A stretch of DNA of 64,000 nt from Variovorax paradoxus (GTDB lineage: Bacteria > Pseudomonadota > Gammaproteobacteria > Burkholderiales > Burkholderiaceae_C): contig NZ_CP046622.1 of NCBI RefSeq assembly GCF_009755665.1, forward strand, positions 248,001-312,000, given 5' to 3'. A program made the position numbers and the translations under genes. This document shows positions 42,889-62,461 of the stretch, in pieces; the stretch's first letter is position 1; every line of letters starts with the position of its first letter. The notes under the pieces are model-generated. The model was not told the origin of the DNA and searched no databases. It was given only the letters and a program-made list of their open reading frames with translations.

Positions 42889-44256
42889 CTATTGACGCTC
42901 GGCGGGGGCTGTGGTCGTGGTGATCCGGGCGGCCAATGCCACCAGCAACAGCACCGGCACCCCCAGGAGCGCCGTGGCGGTAAAGAACGGGGCGTAGCCG
43001 TAGGCGTCGACAAAAACACCCGAGTAGCCGGCAATGAACTTCGGCAGCAGCAGCATCAGCGAACTGAACAGGGCGTACTGCGTGGCGGAGTAGCTGATGT
43101 TCGTCAGGCTGGAGAGATAGGCGATGAACGCCGCCGAGGCGATGCCGCCAGCCAGGTTGTCGGCGGACACCACCGCAATCAGCGCCGTGAGGTCGTGCCC
43201 GCGCGAGGCCAGCCAGGCAAACAGCAGGTTGCTGGCGGCGCTGAGGACCGCGCCCAGCATGAGCACGCGCATCACGCCCAGTCGCATCGACAGCACGCCG
43301 CCCACGAAGGCGCCGGCCAGCGTCATCACCACGCCGTAGATCTTGCTGACCGTGGCCACCTCGTCCTTGGTAAAGCCCATGTCCACGTAGAACGGGTTGG
43401 CCATGATGCCCATCACCACGTCGCTGATGCGGTAGATGGCAATCAGCGCGAGGATCAGCGCGGCCTGCCACTTGTAGCGGCGGATGAAGTCGGCAAAGGG
43501 CTCGACGAGCACGCCCTGCAGCCACTCGGCCGCGTTCCTTGCCTTGGGCAGCACGCGACGCGCCGGCTCGGGTGAGAGCAGCACCGTGAGCACGCCCACC
43601 GCCATCGAGGCGGCCATGACCAGGTAGGCGGTTTTCCAGGCTGCGTTCTGGTAGGCCGCAGCGCCCGTGACGCCTGCCACCGGCGCCACCTCCGCCCAGG
43701 CCGCGACCCACAGCACGCCGGCGCCGGCCCAGATCATCGCGAGGCGGTAGCCGGTTTGATACGCGGCGGCGAGCGCGGCCTGCTTCCGGGTTTCGGCCGA
43801 TTCGATGCGGAAGGCGTCGAGCGCGATGTCCTGCGTGGCCGAGCCGAAGGCCACGAGCAGCGCACACCAGATCAGCGGCTGCAGTCCCTGGCGCGGGTCG
43901 TTGAGCGCCATGCCCACCAACCCCGCGATCACCAGCCCCTGCGCCAGCAGCAGCCAGCCGCGCCGGCGCCCGAGCAGCGTGGTTAGCGGCGGCAGCGGCA
44001 GCCGGTCGACCAGCGGCGCCCAGACCCATTTGAAGCCGTAGGCCAGGCCCACCCAGCTCAGGTAGCCGATGGTGGTGCGGTCGATGCCTGCTTCGCGCAG
44101 CCGGAAGCTCAGCGTGCCCAGCACCAGCAGCAGCGGCAGGCCGGCCGAAAAGCCGAGCGCCAGCATGCGCAGGGTGGCAGGCTCGAGATAGACCTTCAGC
44201 GCGTCGCGCCAGGGCAGGGAAGAGGCGGTGGGGGTTTCGGCGGGCTGGGCAGACAT
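42889..44256 (-). CDS. ampG: AmpG-like muropeptide MFS permease
   Basis: 455 residues, twelve or more predicted helices. LGFSAGLPLLLVLGTLSFRL, then WVWAPLVDRLPLP, AFGSATQDIALDAFRIE and ISYSATQYALFSSLMLLLPK match AmpG, which imports GlcNAc-anhydroMurNAc peptides for cell-wall recycling. I chose the ATG at 44256 (MSAQPAETPTAS); 44271 is possible. It lies 124 bp upstream of the ketosynthase on the same strand. It is divergent from the M48 peptidase gene. Confidence 0.92.
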   Translation of the reverse strand: MSAQPAETPTASSLPWRDALKVYLEPATLRMLALGFSAGLPLLLVLGTLSFRLREAGIDRTTIGYLSWVGLAYGFKWVWAPLVDRLPLPPLTTLLGRRRGWLLLAQGLVIAGLVGMALNDPRQGLQPLIWCALLVAFGSATQDIALDAFRIESAETRKQAALAAAYQTGYRLAMIWAGAGVLWVAAWAEVAPVAGVTGAAAYQNAAWKTAYLVMAASMAVGVLTVLLSPEPARRVLPKARNAAEWLQGVLVEPFADFIRRYKWQAALILALIAIYRISDVVMGIMANPFYVDMGFTKDEVATVSKIYGVVMTLAGAFVGGVLSMRLGVMRVLMLGAVLSAASNLLFAWLASRGHDLTALIAVVSADNLAGGIASAAFIAYLSSLTNISYSATQYALFSSLMLLLPKFIAGYSGVFVDAYGYAPFFTATALLGVPVLLLVALAARITTTTAPAERQ

Positions 44257-45219: not shown

Positions 45220-45338
45220 CCCTCTCCCTCTCCCTCTCCGGGAGAAGGCGGGGTGAGGGCAGCTGCCCTCATATAAGAGCCGTGCTTCATCGGCGGCACG
45301 CAGCCCTCACCCCAACCCTGTCCCAGAGGGAGAGGGGG
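45220..45338. repeat. Short inverted-repeat (MITE-like) intergenic element
   Basis: Arms of about 40 bp face each other: a left arm of repeated CCCTCT units followed by GGCGGGGTGAGGGC (ending near 45260), and a right arm GCCCTCACCCC (45303-45313) followed by CAGAGGGAGAGGGGG. The roughly 40 bp between them is unrelated. It has no reading frame of its own. Elements of this look are scattered between genes in many betaproteobacteria and xanthomonads. It sits 48 bp ahead of the atzF promoter. Confidence 0.8.
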
Positions 45339-45406: not shown

Positions 45407-45420
45407 ACTTGTACACAAGT
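45407..45420. promoter_or_regulatory. Palindromic operator over the atzF transcription start
   Basis: ACTTGTACACAAGT: arms ACTTGT/ACAAGT with a 2-bp spacer. It fits the TnGTnnnACnA-type pattern of FadR-subfamily GntR repressors, and a GntR gene closes this cluster at 56477. It overlaps the predicted start of transcription, an ideal place for repression. A related site lies at 50238-50249 at the same distance from another sigma-54 element. Confidence 0.65.
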
Positions 45421-45434
45421 TTGGATGCTTTGAT

Positions 45435-47144
45435 ATGGTGCATGAAGAAAACGGATCGGCCGCCGCGGCGTGGATCGCGCGCTTCCCTCGGCCCGTGCCC
45501 GGCGTGGATACGGGAAAAGGCCCGCTCGCCGGCCTGCGCTTCGCCGTCAAGGACAACATCGACGTGGCCGGCGTGCCCACCACGGCCGCCTGTCCATCGT
45601 TCGATCGCCGGCCCACCGAGCACTCGGCCGTGGTGCAGAAGCTGCTCGATGCCGGTGCATCGCTGCTCGGCAAGACCAACCTCGATCAGTTCGCCTGCGG
45701 CCTGAACGGCACGCGCTCTCCGTATGGCGAGGTGCCCAACGCCTTCGACCCGCGCTATGTCTCGGGCGGCTCCAGCTCGGGCTCGGCCTATGTGGTGGCC
45801 GCGGGTGAGGTTGATTTCGCGCTCGGCACCGACACGGCCGGTTCGGGCCGCGTGCCCGCCGGGCTCAACAACATCGTCGGCATCAAGCCTTCGCGCGGCT
45901 TGCTGAGTGCGTTCGGCGTGGTGCCTGCTGCGCAGAGCGCGGACTGCGTGTCGATCTTCGCGCGCACGGTCGGCCTGGCTGTCGACGTGCTTCTTGCGGC
46001 CGCGGGTCCGGACGCGCGCGATCCTTATTCGCGCGAACTTGCCTTGCGCAGCGACCCCTTTACACCGGCATTTCGCTTCGGCGTGCCCGATACGCTGAGC
46101 TTCTTCGGCGACACCGAAGCCGAAGCAGCCTTCCGCGACGCACAGGCGCGGCTCGTCGCGCTCGGCGGCACGCCGATGACGATTCCCTTCGCGCCGCTGG
46201 CCGAGGCCGCCGCGCTGCTCTATGAGAGCGCACTGGTGGCCGAGCGCTATGCCGCGGTGCGCGGGTTTTTTGATGCGCACGGCTCCCAGGTCATCGAACC
46301 GGTGCGCGGCATTCTCGAGAGCGGACGCGGCTACAGCGCCGCCGATGTGTTCGAGGCGCAGACAAGACTGCGCGCGCTCGCGCAACAGGTCGAGCCGATG
46401 TGGCGCGGCATCGACGTGCTGCTGGTGCCAACGGCGCCCACGCACTACACGCGCGACCAGATGCGCGCCGATCCGGTCGTGCTCAACCGCAACCTCGGCG
46501 CGTACACCAACTTCGTCAACCTGCTGGACTACGCCGCCATTTCGGTGCCGAGTTCGCTGCGCGCCGACGGCCTGCCGTTCGGCATCACGCTGATCGCGCC
46601 GTGCGGCAGCGACCTTGCGCTGGCCGATCTGGGCCAGCGCTATCACCACGCCACTGGGCTGCCGCAAGGCGCCACCGGCTTACCGCTGCCAGAGCCGCGC
46701 GCCATTCTGGGCCTGGGCGTCTCGCAAGTGCAGACGATGCCCATCGCTGTCGTCGGCGCACACCTTTCGGGCATGCCGCTCAATAGCCAGCTCACCGAGC
46801 GCGGCGCCACGCTGCTGCGTGCCACGACCACCGCGCCCCGCTACCGGCTGCATGCATTGCCCGGCACCGTGCCGCCCAAGCCGGGCCTGCAGCGCAGCGC
46901 AGGCGGCGGTACCGCCATCGCGCTCGAGGTGTGGTCGGTTCCGGTTGCGCAGGTCGGCAGCTTCCTGGCGCTGATTCCGCCTCCACTGGGGCTCGGCAGC
47001 GTGGAGCTTGCCGACGGCAGCTGGGTGCACGGCTTCATCTGCGAAGGCCATGCGCTGGCCGACGCCGAAGACGTGAGCCACCACGGCGGCTGGCGTGCCT
47101 ACATCGCGAGCCGCACCGTTCCTTCCCAAGCCATTTCAACCTGA
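45435..47144 (+). CDS. atzF: Allophanate hydrolase AtzF
   Basis: 569 residues. The amidase-signature catalytic set is complete: K39 (FAVKDN), cis-serine S113 (GGSSSG) and S137 (DTAGSGR). A C-terminal AtzF-type domain (about 450-569, ending GWRAYIASR) follows. It converts allophanate to ammonia and carbon dioxide. No urea carboxylase gene is nearby, so allophanate probably comes from biuret-type hydrolysis by the isochorismatase enzymes in the same cluster. It is the first gene behind a sigma-54 promoter. Confidence 0.95.
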   Translation: MVHEENGSAAAAWIARFPRPVPGVDTGKGPLAGLRFAVKDNIDVAGVPTTAACPSFDRRPTEHSAVVQKLLDAGASLLGKTNLDQFACGLNGTRSPYGEVPNAFDPRYVSGGSSSGSAYVVAAGEVDFALGTDTAGSGRVPAGLNNIVGIKPSRGLLSAFGVVPAAQSADCVSIFARTVGLAVDVLLAAAGPDARDPYSRELALRSDPFTPAFRFGVPDTLSFFGDTEAEAAFRDAQARLVALGGTPMTIPFAPLAEAAALLYESALVAERYAAVRGFFDAHGSQVIEPVRGILESGRGYSAADVFEAQTRLRALAQQVEPMWRGIDVLLVPTAPTHYTRDQMRADPVVLNRNLGAYTNFVNLLDYAAISVPSSLRADGLPFGITLIAPCGSDLALADLGQRYHHATGLPQGATGLPLPEPRAILGLGVSQVQTMPIAVVGAHLSGMPLNSQLTERGATLLRATTTAPRYRLHALPGTVPPKPGLQRSAGGGTAIALEVWSVPVAQVGSFLALIPPPLGLGSVELADGSWVHGFICEGHALADAEDVSHHGGWRAYIASRTVPSQAIST

Positions 47145-47161
47145 TCGATCGAGGAGTCTTC

Positions 47162-48166
47162 ATGAGCATCCCTGAAAAATCGCCCGCCGCCGCGTCGCGC
47201 CGCCAGCTGTTGCAAGCCGGCGCAGCGGGCTTGGCCGTGCTGGCCGCACCGGCCATCGTGCGAGCGCAAGCCGCACCGAAGATCCGAATCGGCTTCTGGC
47301 CCGTGGCCGCCGGCCTCCCCTTCTTTGCCGCGGTGGACCGCGGTTACTTCAAGGAAGCCGGCCTCGACGTGGAGCCGCTCAAGTTCGCCGGCGCGCAGCA
47401 GGTCATGGAAGGCATGCTGGCGGGCCGCTGCGACGGCAGCTCCAACGGCACCGGCTCTGCCAACCTCGCCATCGGCGAGATTGCGCAGCCGGGCCTCTTC
47501 AAGATCTTCTGCACCAACCCGAGCAACGCCAAGTTCGTGCTCGACGAGTTCATCGTCGCCAAGGACAGCCCGATCAAGACCATGGCCGAGCTGGCCGGCA
47601 AGAAGATCGCGTCCGGCCCCGGCATCCAGAACGTGACGTTGTGCAAGACCATGCTCGAACGCGCCGGCGCCAAAGGGGCCACGGTGAGCGAGCTGCCCAT
47701 CGGCCAGCACGTGGCCGCGCTCGTCGCGGGCCAGGTCGACGCCTGCTACACGCTGGAGCCCACCGGCACTGTGGGCCGCATGAACGGCACCACGCGCGTC
47801 ATCGAAGCCGGCGTGGTCGCCAGGTATATCCTGGGCGATCCCATGGCGCCCTGGCACGGCGGCGCGGCCAGTCTCACGAGCGAGTTCATCAAGAAGAACC
47901 CGGAAGTCGCCAAGAAGTACATCGCCGCCTATGCGCGCGGCGTGGAGCTGGTGCGCACCAAGCCCGACGACGCCCGCCAGCACATGAAGGGCTACACCGC
48001 CATCGAGGGCAAGCTCACGGCCGAAGTACCTCTCGCCTCTTACATGCTCTACAACGAGTTCAAGCCCAGCGACGTGGCCTACTTCCAGAAGTTCTACGAC
48101 CTGTTCACCGAGAAAGGCATCTTCGAGAAGAAGGTGCTGGTGGACGGCCTGCTCTACAAGGCATGA
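47162..48166 (+). CDS. ABC transporter solute-binding protein (NMT1/SsuA type)
   Basis: 334 residues. A twin-arginine-like signal (SRRQLLQAGAAGLAVLAAPA) precedes an NMT1/THI5-like domain: KIRIGFWPVAAGLPFFAAVD, then GYFKEAGLDVEPLKFAGAQ and VDACYTLEPTGTVGR. Relatives bind taurine, nitrate, pyrimidine precursors or urea derivatives. GAGGAG at 47151-47156 fixes the start. It overlaps the permease gene by ATGA. The likely ligand here is a urea-type nitrogen compound, inferred from neighbours. Confidence 0.93.
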   Translation: MSIPEKSPAAASRRQLLQAGAAGLAVLAAPAIVRAQAAPKIRIGFWPVAAGLPFFAAVDRGYFKEAGLDVEPLKFAGAQQVMEGMLAGRCDGSSNGTGSANLAIGEIAQPGLFKIFCTNPSNAKFVLDEFIVAKDSPIKTMAELAGKKIASGPGIQNVTLCKTMLERAGAKGATVSELPIGQHVAALVAGQVDACYTLEPTGTVGRMNGTTRVIEAGVVARYILGDPMAPWHGGAASLTSEFIKKNPEVAKKYIAAYARGVELVRTKPDDARQHMKGYTAIEGKLTAEVPLASYMLYNEFKPSDVAYFQKFYDLFTEKGIFEKKVLVDGLLYKA

Positions 48167-49002
48167 CCATGGCGGACGCAAGCACGACCACGGCCGCGCC
48201 GTGGACGCCGCCGGCCGCCGGAGCCCCGGCAGCGGCTTTGCCCAAGCCCCCGCTGCGCGACCGGCTGCTGCCCTTCATCGGACCCGTGGTGCTGTTCATC
48301 GTGTGGGACCTGGCGGTGCGGCTCGGCTTCATCAAGCCGATCCTGCTGCCCACGCCCGCCGACACCGTTGCGGCGCTGATCACGGGGCTTGCGGGTGGGC
48401 CGCTGCTCACCGACTTTGCGATGACCGTGTGGCGCACGCTGCAGGCCTTTCTGATTGCGGCGGTGGTCGGCGTGCCGCTGGGCGTGCTGCTCGGCAGCAA
48501 TGAGAAGGCCTACCGCAGCGTCGAATTCCTGATCGACTTCTTCCGCTCCACGCCTTCGTCCGCGCTCATTCCGCTGTTCCTCCTGATCTTCGGCGTGTCC
48601 GACGTCAACAAGGTGGCCATTGCGGCTTTCGGTGCGCTGCTGATCGTGGTGTTCAACAGCGCCTATGGCGTCATCAATGCGCGCAAGCAGCGCGTGATGG
48701 CGGCGCGTGTCATGGGTGCCTCGCGCTGGCAGATCTTCAAGGACGTGCTGGTGTGGGAAAGCCTGCAGCCCAGCTTCGTGGGCCTGCGCTCGGCGGTGTC
48801 GATGGCCTTGGTGATCGTCATCGTGGCCGAGATGTTCATCGGCTCCGACACCGGCCTTGGCCACCGCATCATCGATGCGCAGCAGGTGCTCAACGTGAAG
48901 AGCATGTATGCGGCCATTCTTGCCGCCGGTGCGCTGGGCTATGCGCTCAACATTCTCTTTCTTGTGGCCGAGCGCCGCATCGTGCACTGGAGCGGCCGAT
49001 GA
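48163..49002 (+). CDS. ABC transporter permease (SsuC/TauC type)
   Basis: 279 residues with six predicted helices and the EAA loop around [20 protein letters not shown]. The first about 30 residues are Ala/Pro/Thr-rich. The ATG overlaps the binding-protein stop (48163-48166); a second ATG lies 6 bp further on. It forms the membrane channel of importer 1 with the neighbouring binding protein and ATPase. Confidence 0.94.
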
Positions 49003-49832
49003 AAGCCACGCAAGACATCGTCGTGAACGGCCCGGTGTATGCCGACGTGCCCAAGCCCGTCTTCAAGCCCGGCCCCGCCGGCACGCACATCACCATCCGC
49101 GGCCTGACCAAGTACTTTGCCGGCTGGCCGCTGTACGAGAACTTCGATCTCGACATTCCCAAGCACAAGATCGTCTCGGTGTTCGGCCCCAACGGCTGCG
49201 GCAAGTCCACGCTCATCAACATGATCGCGGGGCTCATTCCCATCGATGCGGGCGAGATCCTGTTCGACGGCAAGCAGCGCAAGGACACCAAGATCGGCTA
49301 CGTGTTCCAGAACTACCGCGAGGCGATGTTCCCGTGGATGCGCACCATCGACAACATCGCCTACCCGCTGAAGCTCGAAGGGCGCAGCAAGGCCGAGGTC
49401 GACCGGCGCATGGAAGAGCTGGTGGCGTCCTTCGACGTCAAGTTCGACCTGAAGCGCTTTCCGTACGAACTCTCGGGCGGCCAGCAGCAGACCGCATCGA
49501 TCATGCGGGCGCTCGCGCCCAACCCCGAAGTGCTGTTTCTCGACGAGCCGTTTTCCGCGCTCGATTTCGAGATGACGCTCTTCATCCGCGAGAAGCTGCA
49601 GGAAGTGTTCATGCAGACCGGCACCACCATGCTGCTGGTGTCGCACGACCTCGAAGAGGCCGTGTACCTGGCCGACGAGGTGTTGCTTCTGACCAAGCGG
49701 CCCACCAGGGTGGCCGAGATCCTGCGCTACGGCGATGCCCGGCCGCGCACGGTCGAGACGCTGAGCACCGAGAGCTTTGTCGCAATGAAGAAGCTCAGCC
49801 TCGACATCTTTCAACGCGAGGTGCGCAGATGA
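48999..49832 (+). CDS. ABC transporter ATP-binding protein (SsuB/TauB type)
   Basis: 277 residues. Walker [12 protein letters not shown]-loop [14 protein letters not shown], signature LSGGQQQ, Walker [13 protein letters not shown] and H-loop [10 protein letters not shown] are all intact. An N-terminal extension of about 30 residues precedes the domain. It energises importer 1. Its start and stop each overlap the neighbouring genes by ATGA, so importer 1 and the AtzH-like protein are translationally coupled. Confidence 0.95.
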
Positions 49833-50209
49833 CCCTGGAAATCAACATCCCCGAAGTGCTTGCCGAAGTGACCGCGGTGTTCGCGCGCTACGAAGAAGCA
49901 CTGGTCACCAACCGGCGCGATGTGCTCGACGAGCTGTTCTGGAACAGCCCGCACACGCTGCGCTACGGCTACGCCGAGAACCACTACGGCCATGCGGCGA
50001 TCAGCGCCTTTCGTGCGTCGCTGCCGGTGCAGAGCCCGCCGCGCGAGTTGCTGCGCACCGTCATCACCACCTACGGCCGCGACTTCGCGACCGCCAATAC
50101 CGAGTTCTGCCGCGAAGGCGGCCGCCAGACGGGCCGCCAGAGCCAGACCTGGCTGCGCACCGCCGATGGCTGGCGCGTGGCCGCCGCGCACGTGAGCCTG
50201 ATCGACTGA
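49829..50209 (+). CDS. AtzH-like DUF3225 (SnoaL-fold) protein
   Basis: 126 residues. [20 protein letters not shown], then [20 protein letters not shown] and [20 protein letters not shown] match DUF3225. AtzH of Pseudomonas ADP is reported to turn 1,3-dicarboxyurea into allophanate, with Tyr22 and Arg46 needed; the equivalent Y21 and R45 are present here, offset by one. AtzH normally accompanies AtzG and AtzE, both absent from this cluster. Its ATG overlaps the ATPase stop. Confidence 0.9.
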
Positions 50210-50215
50210 ACAGGC

Positions 50216-50231
50216 AGGCACATTTTTTGCA
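50216..50231 (+). promoter_or_regulatory. Second sigma-54 promoter, upstream of importer 2
   Basis: AGGCAC-N5-TTGCA, with GG (50217-50218) and GC (50229-50230) exactly 10 bp apart; only the first base differs from TGGCAC. It lies in the 53 bp gap before the BMP-type binding protein. It aligns base for base with the atzF promoter over the -24 and -12 elements and the following palindrome. Confidence 0.78.
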
Positions 50232-50237
50232 CCCCAC

Positions 50238-50249
50238 CTTGTATCCAAG
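50238..50249. promoter_or_regulatory. Second CTTG-N4-CAAG palindrome
   Basis: CTTGTATCCAAG matches CTTGTACACAAG (45408-45419) at 10 of 12 positions. It begins eight bases after the -12 GC, exactly as in the atzF promoter. It is probably bound by the same GntR repressor. It also overlaps the expected transcription start. Confidence 0.6.
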
Positions 50250-50262
50250 ACCGGAGAACCCC

Positions 50263-51381
50263 ATGACCAGCCCCATCAATCGCCGCGAGTCCCTCAAATC
50301 CCTGGCCGCGCTCGGCGCTGCCGGTTCCCTTGGAGGCTGGAGCGCCCTTGCCGGCGCACAGGCCAAGCCGCTGACCGTCGGCGTGATCTACGTCGGCGCG
50401 CGCGACGACTATGGCTACAACCAGGCGCACGCCATGGCGGCGGCCGAGGTCAAGAAGCTGCCCGGCGTGAAGGTGGTCGAAGAAGAGAACGTGTCCGAGA
50501 CCGCCGCCGTGCAGAAGACGATGGCCGGCATGATCTCGCAGGACGGCGCCAAGCTGCTGTTTCCCACGTCGTTCGGCTACTTCGATCCGCACATCCTTGC
50601 CGTGGCGCCCAAGAACCCCGATGTGCGCTTCTCGCACTGCGGCGGCCTCTGGACCGAGGGCAAGCACCCGAAGAACGTCGGCAGTTTCTTCGGCTACATC
50701 GACGAGTGCCAGTTCCTGAACGGCGTGATCGCGGCGCACATGACCAAGAGCAACAAGATCGCCTTCGTTGCCGCCAAGCCCATTCCGCAAGTGCTGCGCA
50801 ACATCAACGCCTTTACGCTCGGCGCGCGCTCAGTCAAGCCGAACATCACCTGCAGCGTGATCTTCACCGGCGACTGGTCGATGGCCGTGAAGGAAGCCGA
50901 GGCCACCAACAGCCTGGCCGACCAGGGCTGCGACGCGTTCACCATGCACGTCGACGGCCCCAAGGTGGTGGTGGAGACGGCGGCCAAGCGCGGCAAGATG
51001 GTTTGCGGCTACCACGCGAGCCAGGCCAAGCTGGCACCCAATGCGTATCTCACCGGTGCCGAGTGGAACTGGCTCACGGCCTACAAGGCGGCCATCGAGG
51101 CCGCTCAAGCCGGCAAGCCGCACCCCAACTTCCTGCGCGGAGGCCTGAAGGAAGGCTACGTGAAGATGTCCGCCTACGGCCCCATGGTGCCCGACGCCGC
51201 AAAGAAGCAGGCCGACGACATCAAGGCCAGGATGATCGCGGGCACCTTCGACATCTTCAAGGACGGCATCAAGGACAACAAGGGCGCCGTCGTGGTGCCG
51301 GCCGGCAAGGTGCTGAAGCAGACCGACCTGGAGCTGGAAAAGATGAACTACCTGGTCGAAGGCGTGATCGGCTCGGCCTGA
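50263..51381 (+). CDS. BMP/PnrA-family ABC solute-binding lipoprotein-like protein
   Basis: 372 residues. The signal region has a twin-arginine-like pattern (NRRESLKSLAALGAAGSLGG) rather than a lipobox. The BmpA-type fold shows VGVIYVGARDDYGYNQAHAM, then GGLWTEGKHPKNVGSFFGYI and GAEWNWLTAYKAAIEAAQAG. Family members bind nucleosides or purine-like compounds, though several are linked to urea or nitrogen-compound operons. GGAG before the ATG supports the start. It begins importer 2. Confidence 0.93.
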   Translation: MTSPINRRESLKSLAALGAAGSLGGWSALAGAQAKPLTVGVIYVGARDDYGYNQAHAMAAAEVKKLPGVKVVEEENVSETAAVQKTMAGMISQDGAKLLFPTSFGYFDPHILAVAPKNPDVRFSHCGGLWTEGKHPKNVGSFFGYIDECQFLNGVIAAHMTKSNKIAFVAAKPIPQVLRNINAFTLGARSVKPNITCSVIFTGDWSMAVKEAEATNSLADQGCDAFTMHVDGPKVVVETAAKRGKMVCGYHASQAKLAPNAYLTGAEWNWLTAYKAAIEAAQAGKPHPNFLRGGLKEGYVKMSAYGPMVPDAAKKQADDIKARMIAGTFDIFKDGIKDNKGAVVVPAGKVLKQTDLELEKMNYLVEGVIGSA

Positions 51382-51399
51382 TCCGGGTTCATCATCACC

Positions 51400-52461
51400 A
51401 TGCGCCACGCGCTCAAGGAATTTGCCCTGCCGGTGTTCGCCATTGCGGCAGCGCTGCTGCTCTTCGGTGTGCTGGTGGCCTTTGCCGGCGTCGATCCGGT
51501 GGAGGTCTGGGCAACGCTGTTCAAGGGTGCGTTCGGCGACTGGTTTTCTTGGCAGAACACGTTGCAGCGCGCTGCGCCGCTGATGCTCACCGCGCTGTGC
51601 GTGGCGCTGCCGGCGCGGGCGGGGCTCATCGTCATCGGCGGAGAGGGGGCGCTGGTGCTGGGCGGCCTGGCCTCTGCGGCGCTCGCGCACGCGGTGCCCT
51701 TGCCTCATAACTTCGTGGGCACCGCGGCGGTGTGCGCTGCGGGCGCTCTTGCCGGGGCGCTGTGGATCGCGCTTGCGGGCTGGCTGCGCCAGTACCGCGG
51801 CATCAACGAAACCATCAGCAGCCTGCTGCTGGCCTACATTGCCATCGGCATCTTCAAGCACCTTGTCGAGGGGCCGCTGCGCGACCCGGCCAGCCTCAAC
51901 AAGCCATCGACCCATGCGCTGAACGAGGGGCTGCTGATCGGCGGCATCGGTGGCTCCGACGTGCACTGGGGCTTCGTCATCGGTGTGCTCGCTTGCCTCG
52001 GGCTCGCGTGGTGGCTGCGCGCCACGGCCTCGGGCTTTTCGGTGCGCGTGGTGGGCGGCAATCCGCGCACGGCGCAGCTCGTAGGGCTGCCGGCCACGCG
52101 GCTCATCCTCGGTGCCTGCGCACTCGGCGGTGCCTGCGCGGGGCTCGCTGGCGCGGTCGAGGTGGCGGCGGTTCACACCAATGCCAATGCTTCGTTGATT
52201 GCGGGCTACGGGTATGCGGGCATCCTGGTGTCGTTCATCGCGCGGCACAACCCCGCGGCCATCGTGCCGGTGGCCATCCTGTTCGGCGGCTTCGGTGCGG
52301 CGGGCAGCCTGTTGCAGCGGCGGCTCGGCTTGCCCGATGCATCGGTGCTGGTGCTGCAGGGCATTGCGTTCGTGCTCATTCTTGCGAGCGAGGGCCTGCG
52401 CATGATCGACTGGAGCGCGCTGCGCGCACGCATGCTCCGCGCTTCGGGGAGCCCGGCATGA
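51400..52461 (+). CDS. ABC transporter permease (YufP/BPL_HI type), importer 2
   Basis: 353 residues with about ten hydrophobic segments. ALPARAGLIVIGGEGALVLG and QYRGINETISSLLLAYIAIG match the branched-chain/nucleoside permease superfamily that partners BMP binding proteins. It starts 18 bp after the binding-protein stop and overlaps the second permease by ATGA (52458-52461). Confidence 0.93.
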   Translation: MRHALKEFALPVFAIAAALLLFGVLVAFAGVDPVEVWATLFKGAFGDWFSWQNTLQRAAPLMLTALCVALPARAGLIVIGGEGALVLGGLASAALAHAVPLPHNFVGTAAVCAAGALAGALWIALAGWLRQYRGINETISSLLLAYIAIGIFKHLVEGPLRDPASLNKPSTHALNEGLLIGGIGGSDVHWGFVIGVLACLGLAWWLRATASGFSVRVVGGNPRTAQLVGLPATRLILGACALGGACAGLAGAVEVAAVHTNANASLIAGYGYAGILVSFIARHNPAAIVPVAILFGGFGAAGSLLQRRLGLPDASVLVLQGIAFVLILASEGLRMIDWSALRARMLRASGSPA

Positions 52462-53381
52462 CGGTTGACCAGTGGATCGCGCTCGCGGCCGGCATCGTCG
52501 GCGGTGCGCTGCGCGTGGGCGCACCGTTTCTCTTCGTGAGCCTGGGTGAATGCCTTACCGAGAAGTCGGGGCGCATCAACCTCGGGCTCGAGGGCGTGCT
52601 GGTGCTGTCGGCCATGGCGGCTTTCGGTGGCGCCTATCTCACCGATTCGGCCTGGCTCGGCGTGCTGATCGGCGCTGTGGCGGGCGCGGCGCTCGCGCTG
52701 CTGCACGGCGTGTTGTGTTCGCTCGACCGCGTGAACGATGTGGCCACGGGCATCGCGCTGATGCTGCTCGGCACGGGGCTCGCGTTCTACCTGGGCAAGC
52801 CACTGATCCAGCCGCAGGCGCCTCAGATTCCCGCCATACCGCTGGGCTTCTGGAGCGACAACACGGTGGTGCGATCGGCGCTGCAGCTCAATGCGCTGGT
52901 ACCCATCGGCGTGGCGCTCGCAGTGCTGCTGTGGTGGGGCTTTGCGCGCACACGCGCCGGCCTGCTGGTGCGCATGGCCGGCGATTCGGCGCAGGCGACG
53001 CGCGCGCTCGGCTACTCGGTCTCGGGCCTGCGCATCGCGGCGACAACGGCCGGCGGCTTCATCGCCGGGCTCGGCGGCGCGTCGCTCACGCTGTTTTATC
53101 CGGGCAGCTGGAACGAAGGCATTTCCAGCGGCCAGGGCCTCATTGCGGTGGCGCTCGTGATCTTTGCGCGCTGGAGCCCCCTGCGCTGCGTGGGTGCTGC
53201 GTTTCTCTTCGGCGGCGCGGGTGCCATCGGGCCCGCGCTGCAGTCCATCGGCATCGGCTGGGGCTATCACCTGTTCAACACCGTGCCCTACGTGCTCACG
53301 CTGGTCATTCTTGTGCTTACCTGCAGGCCCGGCAGCACGGCACTCGGCAGCCCCGGCGAACTTTCATCGACAAGGAACTGA
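52458..53381 (+). CDS. ABC transporter permease (YufQ type), importer 2
   Basis: 307 residues with eight to nine hydrophobic segments. [20 protein letters not shown] and the loop [20 protein letters not shown] are typical of the second permease of nucleoside-type importers. The ATG overlaps the first permease stop. It is followed 5 bp later by the biuret-hydrolase-like gene, tying transport to hydrolysis. Confidence 0.93.
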
Positions 53382-53386
53382 ACGCC

Positions 53387-54088
53387 ATGACAACGACAAC
53401 TGGCCGCCACGTGGATGCCGAACCCTATGCCTGGCCCTACAACGGCGCATTGCGGCCCGACAACACCGCGCTCGTCGTGATCGACATGCAGACCGACTTC
53501 TGCGGCAAGGGCGGGTATGTCGACGTGATGGGATACGACCTCTCGCTGGTCCAGGCGCCGATCCAGCCCATTGCGCGCACGCTCGCGGCGATGCGGCCGC
53601 TGGGCTTTCACATCATTCATACGCGCGAAGGCCACCGGCCCGACCTGGCGGACCTGCCCGCCAACAAGCGCTGGCGCTCGCGGCAGATTGGCGCCGGCGG
53701 CGTGGGCATTGGCGACGACGGGCCGTGCGGACGCATCCTGGTGCGCGGCGAGCCGGGCTGGGAAATCATTCCGGAACTGGCGCCGCTCGCCGGCGAGGTG
53801 GTGATCGACAAGCCCGGCAAGGGGTCGTTCTACGCGACGGATCTCGAACTGATCTTGCGCACGCGCGGCATCGAGAACCTGATTCTTGCGGGCATCACCA
53901 CGGACGTGTGCGTGCACACCACGATGCGCGACGCCAACGACCGCGGCTTCGAATGCCTGCTGCTGTCCGACTGCACGGCTGCCACCGACCACGGCAACCA
54001 TCTTGCAGCGCTGAAGATGATCACGATGCAGGGCGGCGTGTTCGGTGCGCACGCCGGTTCGCAGCAACTGCTGGCCGCGCTCGGGTGA
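53387..54088 (+). CDS. Isochorismatase-family amidohydrolase, probable biuret hydrolase
   Basis: 233 residues. The triad is D33 (VVIDMQTDF), K142 ([10 protein letters not shown]) and C175 (TTDVCVHTT); Q215 (MQGG) is also present. As I recall, Rhizobium biuret hydrolase BiuH uses D36, K142, C175 and Q215, so the spacing is nearly identical. Biuret hydrolysis gives allophanate, the substrate of AtzF in this cluster. The family is broad (RutB, nicotinamidase), so the substrate is inferred. AAGGA at 53372 supports the start. Confidence 0.85.
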
Positions 54089-54095
54089 TTCACGC

Positions 54096-55697
54096 ATGAG
54101 CGCCGCGCCCCACGCGATTGGTGCCCTGCCGGGCGGCAGCGGCGCACTCGCGCTCGACACCTACGAGCTGACCAAGCGCTTCGGCGCCTTCACCGCGATG
54201 GACCGCGTGACGATGCGCGTGGAACCCGGCACGGTGCATGCGCTGCTCGGCGAGAACGGCGCGGGCAAGAGCACGCTGGTGAAATGCGTGGCCGGCTTCC
54301 AGCGCGCGGAAGAAGGCAGCATCCTGATCGACGGGCGCGAGCAGGACATTGCCAATCCCATCGTGGCGCGTGCGCTGGGCATCGGCATGGTCTACCAGCA
54401 CTTCACGCTGGCGCCGGGCATGACGGTGGCGGAGAACCTGCTGCTCGCGGGCGGCAAGACGCCCGCGCTGATCGACTGGAAAGCCAAGCGCGCAGAGCTG
54501 AAGGAGTTTCTCGCGACCACGCCCTTCAGTCTCGACCTGGACGCGCGGCCTTCGGAGCTTGCCGCGGGCGAAAAACAGAAGCTCGAGCTTCTCAAGCAGC
54601 TGTACTTGAAGCCGCGGCTCCTGATCCTCGATGAGCCGACCTCGGTGCTGACGCCGCAGGAGGCGGACGAGGTGCTGGGCCATGTGCGGGAGTTCGCGCG
54701 CAGCGGTTTGTGCACCGTGCTCATCATCACGCACAAGTTTCGCGAGGTCATGGCCTATGCGGACGGCGTGACGGTGCTGCGCCGCGGCAAGGCGGTACAC
54801 CATTGCCGCGTGACGGACACGAGCCCGGCACGGTTGGCAGGGGCCATGATGGGCGGCGAGGATGCTGAGGCTTCTTCCTCCGCACCGGCTGCATTGCCCG
54901 CTGCCAGAAAGCCCGTGTCCGCTGCGGCGCCCATTGCATTGAAGGTCGAAGGCCTCCGGGCCCAGGGCGACCGGGGCACCTTGGCGCTGCACGACCTGGC
55001 ACTTTCGGTGCGCGCGGGCGAAATCCTCGGCGTGGCGGGCGTCTCGGGCAACGGGCAGCGCGAGCTGGTCGAGGCACTGGTCGGGCAGCGTCCGCGGCTT
55101 GCCGGGAAGGTGAGCGTCATGGGCCAACCATACAGCGCACGGCGCGGAGAGAACCGAAGCCTCAAGGTGCGCAGCCTGCCCGAGGAGCCGCTGCGCAACG
55201 CGTGCGTGGGCGATCTCAGCGTGGCAGAGAACATGGCGCTTCGTGATTTCGACAGGCCGCCTTTGTCGCGAGGCGGGGTGCTGAACTATCCCTTCTGGCG
55301 CAACCGGGCGCGCGAGTGGATCGCCGAATACGGCGTGAAGACGCAGGGTGAGGGCGCGCCGATTCGCAGCCTTTCAGGCGGGAACGTGCAGCGCGCCGTA
55401 CTGGCGCGCGAACTCGCAGGCGACATCAATGTGCTGATTGCGGCCAACCCGGTGTTTGGGCTCGACTTTGCGGCCGTGGCCGAGATTCACGAACGCATCG
55501 TGCAGGTACGCGAGAAGGGCGGGGCAGTGCTGCTCATCAGCGAAGACCTCGACGAACTGCTGGAACTGGCCGACCGCATCGTCGTGATGAGCGAAGGGCG
55601 CATCGTGTTCGAGACTTCGGCTGAGGGCGCTGAGAGGCACGTGATCGGGGCGCACATGGGTGGCGGGCATCATGAGCCGTTGGAGGCTGTGGCATGA
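54096..55697 (+). CDS. ABC transporter ATP-binding protein (two-domain, YufO type), importer 2
   Basis: 533 residues with two ATPase domains. The first has Walker A LLGENGAGKST, Q-loop VYQHFTLAPGM and Walker B LLILDEPTS. The second has the altered P-loop GVSGNGQREL, signature LSGGNVQR and ISEDLDELLEL. Degenerate second domains are normal in this sugar/nucleoside type. I chose the ATG at 54096 (MSAAPHAIG), 7 bp after the hydrolase stop. It powers importer 2. Confidence 0.93.
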   Translation: MSAAPHAIGALPGGSGALALDTYELTKRFGAFTAMDRVTMRVEPGTVHALLGENGAGKSTLVKCVAGFQRAEEGSILIDGREQDIANPIVARALGIGMVYQHFTLAPGMTVAENLLLAGGKTPALIDWKAKRAELKEFLATTPFSLDLDARPSELAAGEKQKLELLKQLYLKPRLLILDEPTSVLTPQEADEVLGHVREFARSGLCTVLIITHKFREVMAYADGVTVLRRGKAVHHCRVTDTSPARLAGAMMGGEDAEASSSAPAALPAARKPVSAAAPIALKVEGLRAQGDRGTLALHDLALSVRAGEILGVAGVSGNGQRELVEALVGQRPRLAGKVSVMGQPYSARRGENRSLKVRSLPEEPLRNACVGDLSVAENMALRDFDRPPLSRGGVLNYPFWRNRAREWIAEYGVKTQGEGAPIRSLSGGNVQRAVLARELAGDINVLIAANPVFGLDFAAVAEIHERIVQVREKGGAVLLISEDLDELLELADRIVVMSEGRIVFETSAEGAERHVIGAHMGGGHHEPLEAVA

Positions 55698-55808
55698 GTG
55701 CTCTGCTGTTCATCGGAAGGCCGCACACCGGGCTCAAAGGTGGAGTGTTTGCCCCTGTGCATCCCGCCGATCGCCGCACCCGCGCCCTCTGAACAAGTGA
55801 GCAACAAC

Positions 55809-56480
55809 ATGCGCATAGAAGAAGCCATTCCCTTCCCCTACGAGTTCGAGATCAAGAAAGCTGCCCTGGTCCTCATCGACATGCAGCGCGACTTCATCGA
55901 ACCCGGCGGCTTCGGTGAAACGCTGGGCAACGACGTGTCCCTGCTCGAAGCGATCGTTCCTGCCACAAAAGCGGCGTTGCAGGCCTGGCGGGAAACCGGC
56001 GGCCTCGTGGTGCACACGCGGGAGGCGCACAAGCCCGATCTTTCCGATTGCCCGCCCGCCAAGCGCAGCCGCGGCAACCCGGCGTTGCGCATCGGCGACG
56101 AAGGCCCGATGGGCCGCATCCTTGTGGCGGGCGAACCGGGCAACCAGATCATCGATGCGCTGGCGCCGGTCGAAGGCGAAATCGTCATCGACAAGCCCGG
56201 CAAGGGCGCGTTCTACGCCACCGGCCTGCACGAACTGCTGCAAGCGCGCGGCATTACGCACCTGCTGTTCGGCGGGGTGACCACCGAGGTCTGCGTGCAG
56301 ACCAGCATGCGCGAAGCCAACGACCGCGGCTACGACTGCCTTCTGCTCGAAGACTGCACCGAGAGCTACTTTCCGGCCTTCAAGGCAGCCACGCTCGACA
56401 TGGTTCGCGCCCAGGGCGGCATCGTCGGCTGGACCGCGCCAAGCAGGGCGCTGCTGGCTGCGCTTCGCGGTGGGCAATGA
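55809..56480 (+). CDS. Isochorismatase-family amidohydrolase, paralogue of the biuret hydrolase
   Basis: 223 residues. Triad D24 (VLIDMQRDF), K129 ([10 protein letters not shown]), C162 (TTEVCVQTS), with Q202 (AQGG). About half the residues match the protein at 53387 by eye; the differences cluster in the substrate-loop region and the C-terminus ([10 protein letters not shown] against [10 protein letters not shown]). It may act one step earlier, for example on triuret, or on another ureide. The ATG at 55809 is chosen; it overlaps the GntR gene start by ATGA. Confidence 0.85.
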
Positions 56481-57250
56481 CAGCGACTAATATTCCCCAC
56501 GTGCCTACTGTTCGTTCCCGCTCCGCCTCGCCCGTACCCGCCGTCCCCGCCGCCGGCGAAACCGCTTTTCGCACCCGCGCCGACGAGGTGTACGCGCAGC
56601 TCAAGCGCGACGTGGCCGATTTCATTCTTGTGCCGGGCGACCGCTTCACCGAGAACGAGATCAGCGAGCGGCTCGGGGTTTCGCGCACGCCGGTGCGGCA
56701 GGCGCTTTTCCGCCTTCAGCAAGAGGGCTTTGTCGAGGTGCTGTTCCGCAGCGGCTGGCGCGTGCTGCCGTTCGACTTCGACCAGTTCGAGCAGCTTTAC
56801 GACCTGCGCATGGTGCTCGAGACCACGGCCGTGCATCGCCTTTGCGAGGCGGATCGCCGCGTCGACCGCAGCCTGCTCGAGGCACTGGCCGACATCTGGC
56901 TCGTGCCCGCGGCCCAGCGCAGCAGCGACACCGCCCAGGTGGCGCAATGGGACGAGGCTTTTCACTGCTCGCTGGTGGCCGCCGCAGGCAACGCCGAGAT
57001 GGCGCGCGTGCACGGCGACGTGACCGAACGCATCCGCATCATCCGCCGCCTCGACTTCACGCAGCAGCCGCGCATCGATGCCACCTACGACGAGCACGCC
57101 AAGATCCTGAAGGCCGTTCGCTCCAACCGCGGCGACCAGGCCGCAATGCTGCTGCGCGCGCACATCGAGACCAGCCAGGCCGAGGTGCGCAAGATCACGC
57201 TGCACCAGGTGCACCTGGCGCGGCATGCCGGAAAGACGGCGCCGCGCTGA
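56477..57250 (+). CDS. GntR-family (FCD domain) transcriptional repressor
   Basis: 257 residues. A variable N-terminal tail of about 30 residues is followed by the winged helix-turn-helix ([20 protein letters not shown], then [20 protein letters not shown]) and a helical FCD ligand-binding domain with metal-type histidines ([23 protein letters not shown]). It is the last gene of the cluster, coupled to the second hydrolase. It is the obvious candidate to bind the CTTG-N4-CAAG sites at 45407 and 50238 and to sense a ureide. Confidence 0.92.
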
Positions 57251-59481: not shown

Positions 59482-60972
59482 TCAGGCCAGCTTGGCCTTG
59501 AGCAGTTCGGTGACCTGAGCGGGGTTCGCCTTGCCGCCGCTCGCCTTCATCACCTGGCCCACGAGGCCGTTCAGGGCCTTTTCCTTGCCGGCGCGGTACT
59601 CTTCGACGTTCTTCTGGTTCTTGGCAATCACCTCGTCCAGGATCTTGTCGAGCGCGCCGGTGTCGTTCATCGGCTTCAGGTCCTTGGCTTCGATGATGGC
59701 GTCGACATCGCTGCCGTCGCCAGTCCAGAGCGCATCGAACACCTGGCGCGCCGCGTTGTTGGGCAGCGTGCCGTCGGCAACGCGTTGCACCAGCTGGGCC
59801 AGCTGCTGCGCGGTGACGGGCGCGGCTTCGATGCCGATTTCCTGCGCGTTCAGGCGGCGCGCCATTTCGCCGGTGATCCAGTTGCTTGCGAGCTTGGGGG
59901 TTGCGCCGGCCTTCACCGCGTCGTCGAAATAGCGGGCGAGCGCCGGGCTCTGCGTGAGCTGCGTCGCGTCGTATTCCGACATGCCGTGATCGCGCACATA
60001 GCGCTCGGCCATGGCGCGCGGCAGCTCGGGCATGGTGGCACGCACCCGCTCGATCCAGTCGGCGGCGATGACCAGCGGCGGCAGGTCCGGATCGGGGAAG
60101 TAGCGGTAGTCGGCCGAGTCTTCCTTGGCGCGCATCGCACGCGTCTCGCCCGTGTCGGGGTTGAACAGCACGGTGGCCTGTTCGACCTTGCGGCCGTCCT
60201 CGATCTCCTCGATCTGCCAGCGGATCTCGTAGTCGATCGCCTGCTGCATGAACTTGAAGCTGTTCAGGTTCTTGATCTCGCGCCGCGTGCCGAGTTTTTC
60301 GCCGGGCCTGCGCACCGACACGTTGGCGTCGCAGCGGAAGCTGCCTTCCTGCATGTTGCCGTCGCAGATGCCGATCCACGTGACGATCTTGTACAGCTCG
60401 CGCGCATAGGCCACGGCCTCCGCGGTGGAGCGCATGTCGGGCTCGGTCACGATTTCGAGCAGCGGCGTGCCGGCGCGGTTCAGGTCGATGCCGCTCTGGC
60501 CGATGAAGTCCTCGTGCAGCGACTTGCCGGCGTCTTCTTCGAGGTGGGCGCGCACCAGGCGCACCGTCTTCTTTTCTTCGCCCAGGAAGAACGACACCGA
60601 ACCGCCTTGCACCACCGGAATTTCGAACTGGCTGATCTGGTAGCCCTTGGGCAGGTCGGGGTAGAAGTAGTTCTTGCGCGCGAACACGCTGCGCGGCGCA
60701 ATGTGCGAGCCGAGCGCCAGGCCCAGCTTGATGGCGCGTTCGACCGCGCCCTTGTTCATCACGGGCAGCGTGCCGGGCAGTGCCAGATCGACCGCGCAGG
60801 CCTGCGTGTTGGGCTCCGCGCCAAAGGCGGTGGAGGCGCGGCTGAAGATCTTGCTCGCGGTCGACAGCTGGGCGTGCGTCTCGAAGCCGATGATGACTTC
60901 ATAGCCGCGGACCAGCGGGCCGGTCGGACGGCCTTGTTGTTGTGCTTCGAAGGTGTTCACTGTCTCGCTCAT
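59482..60972 (-). CDS. gatB: Asp-tRNA(Asn)/Glu-tRNA(Gln) amidotransferase subunit B
   Basis: 496 residues. The catalytic kinase domain has [32 protein letters not shown] and [18 protein letters not shown]; the C-terminal YqeY-like tail follows. GatB activates the misacylated tRNA and takes ammonia from GatA. It starts 1 bp after the gatA stop. The AdT complex means the organism makes Gln-tRNA and/or Asn-tRNA indirectly. Confidence 0.97.
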
Positions 60973-60973
60973 T

Positions 60974-62457
60974 TCAGAAGCCCTCCGGCGTGCGCATGTG
61001 CCAGTCGGTGGCTTGCTGGAAGCGGTGCGCTGCGCCGAGCAGCTTCGCTTCGCCGAAGTAGTTGCCGATCAGCTGCAGGCCGACGGGCATGCCCGCATCG
61101 AAGCCCGCGGGCACGCTCATGCCGGGCAGGCCGGCCAGCGACGCGGGCAGCGTGAAGATGTCTGCGAGGTAGTCGGCAACGGGGTCGTCCCCATGCTCGC
61201 CGATCTTCCAGGCGGTGGTCGGCGCGGCGGGGCCGGCGATCACGTCGCACTGCTTGAAGGCCTGCTGAAAGTCGTCGGCGATCATGCGGCGCACCTTTTG
61301 CGCCTGCAGGTAGTAGGCGTCGTAGTAGCCGTGCGAGAGCACGTAGGTGCCGATCATGATGCGGCGCTTCACCTCGTCGCCAAAGCCTTCGGCGCGCGTG
61401 CGCTCGTACATGTCGCCCAGGTCCTTGTACTGCTTGGCGCGGTGGCCGAACTTCACGCCGTCGAAGCGGCTCAGGTTGCTCGACGCCTCGGCCGCGGCCA
61501 GGATGTAGTACACGGGAATCGACAGTTCGGTGCGCGGCAGGCTCACTTCGACGCGCTTGGCGCCGAGCTTCTCGTATTGCGCCAGCGCCGCATCGACGGC
61601 GGCGCGCACGCCGGGCGCCACGCCTTCGCCGAAGAACTCCTTCGGCACGCCGATGCGCAGGCCCTCGAGCGAGTCGTTCAGCGAGCGGCTGAAGTCTTCG
61701 GCGGGCTTGTCGAGCGAGGTGGAGTCGCGGTCCAGGTCGGGGCCGCAGAAGGCCGACAGCAGCAGCGCGCAGTCTTCGGCCGAGCGGGCCATGGGGCCGG
61801 CCTGGTCGAGGCTCGATGCGAACGCCACCATGCCGTAGCGCGAGGCGCGGCCGTACGTGGGCTTGATGCCGGTGATGCCGCAGAACGAGGCCGGCTGGCG
61901 GATCGAGCCGCCGGTGTCGGTGCCGGTGGCCGCAGGGGCCAGGCGGGCCGCCACGGCCGCGGCGCTGGCGCCCGAGGAGCCGCCCGGAATGCGCTCGCGG
62001 TTCCAGGGGTTTTGCACCGGCACGGCCTTGTCGTGGCCCACGGCGGGCACGGCCACGTTCTCGTTGGCCGAGCCCATGGCGAACTCGTCGCAGCTCAGCT
62101 TGCCGAGGGTGACTGCGCCGGCTTCGGCCAGGCGGCGCACCACGGTGGCATCGAAGGGCGAACGGTAGCCCGCGAGCATCTTCGAGCCGGCGGTGGTGGC
62201 GAAATCGGTGGTGACGAAGATGTCCTTGTGCGCAATCGGCACGCCGGCCAGTGCCGGGGCGTTGCCGGTGGCAAGCTGCGCGTCGGCCGCACGGGCCTGG
62301 GCCAGCGTGACTTCCTCGTTCACATCCACAAAGGTGCCGAGCGATTCGTGGGACTTCATGCGGCCCAGAAAGGCCTGGGACGCCTCGACCGCCGAAACCT
62401 GGCGGTCGGCCAATGCCTTGGCCAGGGCGACCACGCCCATTTGATGCAATTCGCCGC

Positions 62458-62461
<4 letters not shown>
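60974..62461 (-). CDS. gatA: Asp-tRNA(Asn)/Glu-tRNA(Gln) amidotransferase subunit A
   Basis: 495 residues, amidase-signature glutaminase subunit. K79 (PIAHKDIF), [14 protein letters not shown] and [13 protein letters not shown] hold the Ser-cisSer-Lys set. It releases ammonia from glutamine for GatB. The ATG overlaps the gatC stop (62458-62461). It shares the amidase fold with AtzF at 45435 but differs in context and C-terminus. Confidence 0.97.

Follow-up and report, generated by a model that had tools for sequence, protein, structure and literature searches.

The window examined here is a 64,000-nucleotide stretch of the Variovorax paradoxus genome (contig NZ_CP046622.1, positions 248,001 to 312,000), a genome made up of a single contig of 5.57 Mb. 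At 45435-57250 it contains twelve genes, all on the + strand, whose neighbours overlap or sit at most 111 bases apart. The array starts with atzF (45435..47144), predicted to encode an allophanate hydrolase with an amidase domain and a C-terminal AH_C domain (PF01425, PF21986), followed by a first importer composed of an NMT1/SsuA-type substrate-binding protein (47162..48166, PF09084), with a twin-arginine-like RRQLL read by eye at its N-terminus, a permease (48169..49002, PF00528), and an ATPase (48999..49832, PF00005). Overlapping the stop of this ATPase gene is a gene for an AtzH-like NTF2-type protein (49829..50209, PF11533), which we propose to be a 1-carboxybiuret decarboxylase. A second importer comprises a Bmp/PnrA-type substrate-binding protein (50263..51381, PF02608), two permeases (51400..52461 and 52458..53381, both PF02653), and a tandem ATPase with two PF00005 stretches (54096..55697). 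The putative biuret hydrolase gene biuH (53387..54088) sits inside this four-gene importer, and the putative triuret hydrolase gene trtA (55809..56480) and a gene for a GntR/FCD transcriptional regulator (56477..57250, PF00392, PF07729) complete the array. The original prediction had described a twelve-gene array with AtzF, an AtzH-like protein, two isochorismatase hydrolases, two ABC importers, and a repressor, and Pfam and NCBIfam models find all of them, except that the regulator is recognized as a member of the GntR/FCD family and its repressor role would follow from that family. The closest named relative in this search, Variovorax sp. DXTD-1, has the identical gene order and an AtzH that is 96% identical.

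The enzyme classes could be assigned with some detail. The AtzF protein combines the amidase and the C-terminal allophanate hydrolase domains, scores 738.9 bits against the equivalog model TIGR02713 (cut-off 511.05), and also passes the cut-off of NF006043. The 53387 protein, an isochorismatase-type hydrolase like the 55809 protein, scores 418.7 bits against the BiuH model NF050097 (cut-off 370) and shares 77% identity with Rhizobium BiuH (PDB 6azo). At the six residues that separate TrtA from BiuH (PMC7948467; the papers cited here were covered in part), it reads YYSDTV (Tyr, Tyr, Ser, Asp, Thr, Val), exactly as 6azo. With Herbaspirillum TrtA (PDB 6xix) the 55809 protein shares 70% identity, compared with 49% for BiuH 6azo; it has FNAEYI at Phe35, Asn41, Ala134, Glu160, Tyr187, and Ile205, exactly as 6xix, and keeps the Asp24-Lys129-Cys162 triad together with Phe29, Lys132, and Gln202 (DFKKCQ). 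The exact FNAEYI set occurs in 103 of 136 TrtA matches and Met replaces residue 134 in 28; all others also differ at 134 apart from one, which differs at 205, and one of the deviating matches in addition lacks Gln202. The exact YYSDTV set occurs in 113 of 115 BiuH matches, the other two differing at 134, although this separation is not independent of similarity, since the matches were labelled by their best match. A phylogeny against BiuH and TrtA, which had been proposed beforehand as a check, was built from 141 proteins thinned from 257, none of them a guanylurea hydrolase. In this tree, PDB 6azo and 6xjm share the BiuH clade (support 89) with the 53387 protein, and 6xix shares the TrtA clade (support 96; inner group 99) with the 55809 protein, while E. 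coli RutB and two relatives lie outside both clades. Both enzyme proposals thus pass this check. On this sequence evidence, the earlier proposals appear well founded that the 53387 enzyme is a biuret hydrolase feeding allophanate and that the 55809 enzyme acts one step earlier as a triuret hydrolase, as does the reading of the whole array as a triuret/biuret uptake and mineralization cluster.

The absences noted earlier extend to the whole genome of the window. PF09663, the AtzD domain, has no match there (3/3 control records were positive), and no urea carboxylase match reaches the cut-off of its model, while urease is present. Cyanuric acid as the substrate and urea as the source of allophanate were therefore both rejected for this genome. 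Likewise, no AtzE above the cut-off was found in the genome. As a possible substitute, the best match elsewhere is GatA (60974-62461), a member of the amidase family of AtzE, but it was rejected because it scores below the AtzE cut-off and satisfies the GatA model instead. Thus, no AtzE above the cut-off is available in this genome to supply AtzH with 1,3-dicarboxyurea.

The AtzH-like protein, which had been left unexplained, is 65% identical to AtzH of plasmid pADP-1 and matches its structure 6bjt. It has the PF11533 domain with Tyr22 and Arg46, and keeps eight of the nine pocket residues listed in PMC6219798. The one replaced is Arg66, which is Leu (Leu65 of the window protein, codon 50021..50023), so that the arginine-rich pocket formed by Arg63, Arg66, Arg73, and Arg96 retains the other three. 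Purifying selection acts on atzH, with dN/dS of 0.08-0.26 in four comparisons.

In the family of the window's genus, 81 of 299 genomes have a TrtA match at E 1e-60 or better, two of which are at BiuH level only. AtzE is present in 56 of the 79 TrtA genomes compared with 13 of the 220 genomes without TrtA. Therefore, AtzE travels with TrtA, a producer of carboxybiuret that needs no cyanuric acid. Of the family's 78 other TrtA genomes, 60 each contributed one stretch around TrtA, and an AtzE-type amidase gene lies in 37 of these 60 loci, commonly between the importer 1 ATPase gene and atzH, at the place where in the window atzH itself overlaps the ATPase gene. Evidence for atzG consists of one weak match, a gap before the AtzE-type gene, and the annotation of a few records. 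The AtzE-type gene is missing, while atzH is retained, in 18 loci of the Variovorax clade including the window, with 0 to 121 bases between the importer ATPase gene and atzH, or, in locus L115 (Variovorax sp. EL159), with atzH after atzF. No AtzE at the cut-off was found in three other sampled members of the genus, of which G122 lacks TrtA and G215 has its cluster cut by a contig end. In L115, the NMT1 importer is gone and atzF directly precedes atzH, so that this strain either does without the importer or has a substitute for it.

Residue 66 of AtzH follows this difference within biuret/triuret clusters. In a discovery set of 134 loci with few duplicates, Arg66 was found in 85/85 AtzE-bearing loci and 13/13 other AtzE-less loci, and another residue in 36/36 AtzE-less biuret/triuret loci. 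Two further sets, fetched blind to residue 66, came from plasmids (14 of 54 records) and from a sample of the phylum (40 of 44 places). The plasmid set gave a non-Arg residue in 5/5 AtzE-less biuret/triuret loci and Arg in 6/6 AtzE-bearing and 2/2 other loci, a very distant protein (L191) with Asn at 66 and most of the pocket lost being set aside; all 40 loci of the phylum sample were as the rule predicts (3/3 non-Arg, 37/37 Arg). Among the 185 distinct AtzH proteins of the merged set, Arg66 is present in 119/119 with atzE nearby, in 0/43 from AtzE-less biuret/triuret clusters, and in 23/23 AtzE-less ones elsewhere. When 29 positions conserved to at least 97% in AtzE-associated AtzH were compared, only Arg66 was lost in all five AtzE-less groups; Tyr22, Arg46, Arg63, Arg73, and Gln106 were kept in all five, and single groups lose further positions, such as Arg96 in the Cys66 group. 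A search with the Cupriavidus form of AtzH against 5.8 billion proteins gave 956 matches, the best 120 of which all lack Arg66 (Cys 107, Ala 8, Thr 4, Val 1). Those of the 120 that bear a name are mostly called HpxZ, hypothetical, or DUF3225, and they include the protein of PDB 2OWP (hypothetical Bxe_B1374 of Paraburkholderia xenovorans), which is AtzH-like and, as in the window, lacks Arg66, here replaced by Cys, and unlike the window protein has Ser in place of Arg96.

The gene neighbourhood is consistent with two routes. BiuH adjoins non-Arg66 AtzH in 42 of 43 loci, and the remaining one (L109) is cut by a contig end; this is expected because an Arg66-less AtzH, if it makes biuret, needs BiuH. 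Conversely, all ten fetched loci with TrtA and AtzH but without BiuH, among them L152 on a 5 kb contig, have AtzE and Arg66, as expected if AtzEG and AtzH by-pass biuret and make BiuH dispensable. Outside the family, 31 of 33 matching genomes of the phylum sample hold TrtA proper, and AtzE occurs in 11/11 of those without BiuH above the cut-off (seven genera) versus 8/20 with BiuH (Fisher p 0.0014, uncorrected for kinship). The 107 loci with both TrtA and BiuH comprise 50 with AtzE and AtzH(Arg66), two with AtzE but no detected AtzH, 40 with AtzH(non-Arg66) only, nine with only a small cupin (PF12973), and six with none. No locus holds two of these kinds, and this mutual exclusion suggests that the three share one job, the removal of carboxybiuret. 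Three of the six loci with none are cut by contig ends, two of them in genomes (G055 and G204) that have AtzE on another contig; of the other three, one is plasmid-borne (L242 of Enterobacter) and two lie in genomes with AtzE at another place. The small cupin is the next gene match after trtA in its nine loci, two on Rhizobiaceae plasmids and seven in other genomes of the phylum, and possibly represents a carboxybiuret decarboxylase; Allorhizobium locus L196 has AtzH(Gln66) in place of the cupin. These Cupin_7 proteins (L241 9650-10003, L243 8647-8994, and L244-L250) are variously annotated as allophanate hydrolase, cupin, or ChrR anti-sigma factor.

The computed gene content, enzyme classes, absence of AtzE, joint loss of Arg66, and purifying selection on atzH are best explained, as a whole and in our judgement probably correctly, by a decarboxylase-switch operon with which a Variovorax-type bacterium acquires nitrogen from triuret and biuret. 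The activities, transport substrates, and regulation in this scheme are predictions from homology and gene context. The operon very probably imports triuret and biuret, which are impurities of urea fertiliser, and yields ammonia. Both compounds would enter through one or both ABC importers, and TrtA would deaminate triuret to 1-carboxybiuret. In the step that is new, AtzH(Leu66) would decarboxylate 1-carboxybiuret to biuret, from which BiuH would form allophanate and AtzF, in turn, ammonia and CO2. In many relatives, the product of the AtzE-type gene, which is accompanied by room for atzG, would instead convert carboxybiuret to 1,3-dicarboxyurea, and AtzH(Arg66) would decarboxylate this to allophanate, so that biuret is by-passed; AtzEG has been reported to act on the TrtA product (PMC7948467). 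In the Variovorax clade, which lacks atzE, AtzH would have shifted from a two-carboxylate to a one-carboxylate substrate with the loss of Arg66, and the loss of one pocket arginine fits such a change. With the loss of two neighbouring genes, this small enzyme seems to have taken on a different substrate. It has also been reported that AtzH left the ammonia release from AtzD plus AtzEG unchanged (PMC6219798), suggesting that, in line with this scheme, the Arg66 form does not consume carboxybiuret.

Several observations weigh against such a switch. The Arg66Ala and Arg66Lys variants of Pseudomonas sp. ADP AtzH were not among the five impaired variants, and the passages covered report no gain of carboxybiuret activity for them (PMC6219798); therefore Arg66 was inessential for the dicarboxyurea step in that assay, and a single exchange at residue 66 may be insufficient to switch the substrate. 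Carboxybiuret decarboxylates unaided with a half-life of about 20 minutes (PMC7948467), so an enzyme is not strictly needed, and the Enterobacter hormaechei plasmid cluster L242 (pENT-576), which has IS1 genes on both sides, contains no decarboxylase gene. Among the ten loci without BiuH, three have a distant BiuH-like gene (37-43%), and L227 (genome G447) has BiuH elsewhere on its contig. The independence of the losses is also limited. On an AtzH tree from 122 columns, which omits column 66 and leaves many forks unresolved, loss of Arg66 amounts to four changes on the best tree, only two of which are forced by well-supported branches; the 18 Variovorax-clade proteins form one supported group, which on the best tree lies among AtzE-bearing relatives. 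An independent-pairs test within biuret/triuret clusters found agreement in 2/2 usable pairs (p 0.5), and over all 186 rows Arg66 was unchanged on average in 4.4 of 5 pairs differing in AtzE, because AtzE-less AtzH proteins elsewhere keep Arg66. The rule is therefore confined to biuret/triuret clusters, and its strength is the lack of exceptions inside them together with the variety of replacements. Finally, a carboxybiuret decarboxylase named TrtB is cited in PMC7948467 and PMC12625717, and an AtzH-like TrtB would mean that the activity is already known. Either the cupin or the AtzH-like protein could be the enzyme to which that name was given. Judged by tree path length, the closest TrtA to the Herbaspirillum one come mostly from clusters whose AtzH has Cys66, but judged by identity an AtzE-bearing locus is closest, so that this gives only a hint, and co-occurrence with AtzD fits the L241 cupin as TrtB.

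Considering these points, the most serious competitor, which we regard as unlikely though still to be reckoned with, is that the operon does serve triuret and biuret but Arg66 serves docking or channelling between AtzH and AtzE rather than substrate handling, so that it drifts once atzE is absent and AtzH has some other or minor job. Drift would account for the assortment at residue 66 (Leu 20, Thr 8, Cys 6, Ser 5, Val 2, Gly 1, Gln 1), especially in one mixed clade (Thr 8, Ser 5, Val 2, Gly 1), and for the absence of Arg66Ala from the variants reported as impaired (PMC6219798). However, the replacement is constant in two clades (Leu in 18/18 Variovorax proteins and Cys in 6/6), BiuH accompanies nearly all non-Arg66 forms, and Arg66 persists in all 23 AtzE-less AtzH proteins elsewhere, even if for some of these the contig is so short that an AtzE gene may lie beyond it; moreover, published docking places Arg66 in the substrate pocket (PMC6219798). 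We consider it improbable that AtzH is a vestige that lost its substrate with atzE and will decay. The spontaneous decay of carboxybiuret (half-life of about 20 minutes, PMC7948467) and the six TrtA and BiuH loci without AtzE, AtzH, or cupin speak for this, the latter tempered by the three that are contig-cut and the two with AtzE elsewhere, but the low dN/dS of atzH, the conservation of the pocket residues other than Arg66 in 18/18 Variovorax-clade proteins, and the retention of atzH in L115 despite the loss of the neighbouring importer argue against it.

Two further readings concern other substrates. In the first, the 53387 enzyme, the 55809 enzyme, or both would hydrolyse a different ureide, such as guanylurea or ureidoacrylate; this draws on the membership of guanylurea hydrolases in the same superfamily (PMC9800807) and on the second importer, which suggests a further substrate; with complete BiuH and TrtA residue sets, their positions in the tree (without guanylurea hydrolases), and the AtzF and importer context, we find this very improbable. 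Scarcely credible is the reading of the AtzH-like protein as HpxZ in a cluster for oxalurate or allantoin catabolism. The protein does pass the NCBIfam HpxZ equivalog NF033625 (193.1 bits, cut-off 135), but pADP-1 AtzH is also annotated HpxZ, and therefore the name fails to separate functions; since Pfam detects no oxalurate enzyme in the array and the neighbours are TrtA, BiuH, and AtzF, this reading was rejected.

Much of the proposed decarboxylase-switch operon has precedents. TrtA-BiuH-AtzF operons, their reactions, and an adjoining Bmp-type importer have been published (PMC7948467, PMC12625717), as have atzF/ABC/atzG-atzE-atzH clusters with a downstream amidase, Variovorax included (PMC6219798). 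Thus, the core idea of the original prediction is right and already known, and the new part is the AtzH-like gene. The operons of Herbaspirillum sp. BH-1 and Rhizobium leguminosarum 3841 (PMC7948467) have TrtA, BiuH, and AtzF with the reactions proposed here. The two Rhizobiaceae plasmid loci have a cupin after trtA, a formamidase, and, in one case, AtzD, none of which is in the window, whereas the window has the AtzH-like protein and a second ABC importer. With the atzF-(ABC)-atzG-atzE-atzH-ABC-amidase clusters of PMC6219798, the window shares gene order and is clearly the same kind of operon, but it lacks atzE and its AtzH lacks Arg66; the main text of that paper never mentions triuret and leaves the role of these clusters open. 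The cyanuric acid operon atzDGEHF of pADP-1 (L192) has AtzF and AtzH in common with the window; unlike the window, it obtains carboxybiuret from cyanuric acid via AtzD and by-passes biuret via AtzEG, and no TrtA or BiuH match is present within the fetched 9.4 kb. In ammonia oxidisers, triuret clusters (PMC12625717) hold atzF, biuH, trtA, and bmpA-nupABC together, as in the window, with no NMT1 importer in the passages covered, and the decarboxylase is named 'trtB' in the text and 'atzH' in the abstract. A search of the open-access literature, without supplements, found neither an Arg66 rule nor a statement of AtzEGH as a triuret branch.

While the core is an ordinary case of a published pathway in another host, the Arg66/AtzE pattern offers a one-residue prediction for a small decarboxylase, and triuret may be the natural substrate source for the atzG-atzE-atzH clusters of open purpose (PMC6219798). 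We lean slightly towards a broader picture in which all of the following would hold jointly. The AtzH family would consist of two enzymes told apart by residue 66, a 1,3-dicarboxyurea decarboxylase with Arg66 and AtzEG, and a 1-carboxybiuret decarboxylase without either that feeds BiuH. Triuret clusters would use at least three mutually exclusive solutions for carboxybiuret, namely AtzEG with AtzH(Arg66), AtzH(non-Arg66), and the small cupin. The atzGEH module of atrazine/cyanuric acid plasmids would derive from triuret operons of Proteobacteria, which would answer the question left in PMC6219798 and point to where three of the five genes in the cyanuric acid operon may have come from. Many proteins named HpxZ, and that of PDB 2OWP, would be carboxybiuret decarboxylases, the automatic name being suggested to hide at least two roles.

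Regulation and some neighbouring features may be added. A GntR-operator-like site, TTGTACACAA, lies at 45409..45418, 26 bases upstream of the atzF start, and is identical at the identical distance in 15 of the 18 Variovorax-clade loci, among them the window. Of the remaining three, L118 and L119 each show a one-base difference, and in L111 a contig end removes the atzF start. The GntR/FCD regulator probably acts on the promoter at this site. Outside the window, AtzD and TrtA occur in one cluster in L196, where the fetched DNA holds AtzH(Gln66) but lacks AtzE, and in L214, with AtzE and AtzH(Arg66). A formamidase gene absent from the window lies between the Bmp-type permease gene and biuH in five clusters (L183 4079-5086, L184 4078-5085, L241 4653-5669, L242 5748-6752, and L243 4718-5734). 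Lone TrtA genes, with no BiuH or AtzE in the fetched DNA, were found in L251-L267 and L269; those that were checked have the full TrtA residue set, and several of the genomes hold an atzE-atzH(Arg66)-atzF cluster elsewhere. TrtA- or BiuH-class matches occur in 285 plasmid records, including Enterobacteriaceae of clinical and water sources. In the window itself, 45220-45335, between an M48 peptidase gene and atzF, is repeat-like with CCCTC/GAGGG pieces and is perhaps a dispersed intergenic repeat. ARAGORN calls a 98-base tRNA-Asp at 43231-43328 on the - strand, within an MFS transporter gene, which is probably spurious because Rfam gives no match in the window at gathering scores. Just downstream of the array, on the opposite strand, GatA and GatB genes (59482-62461) are ordinary neighbours.

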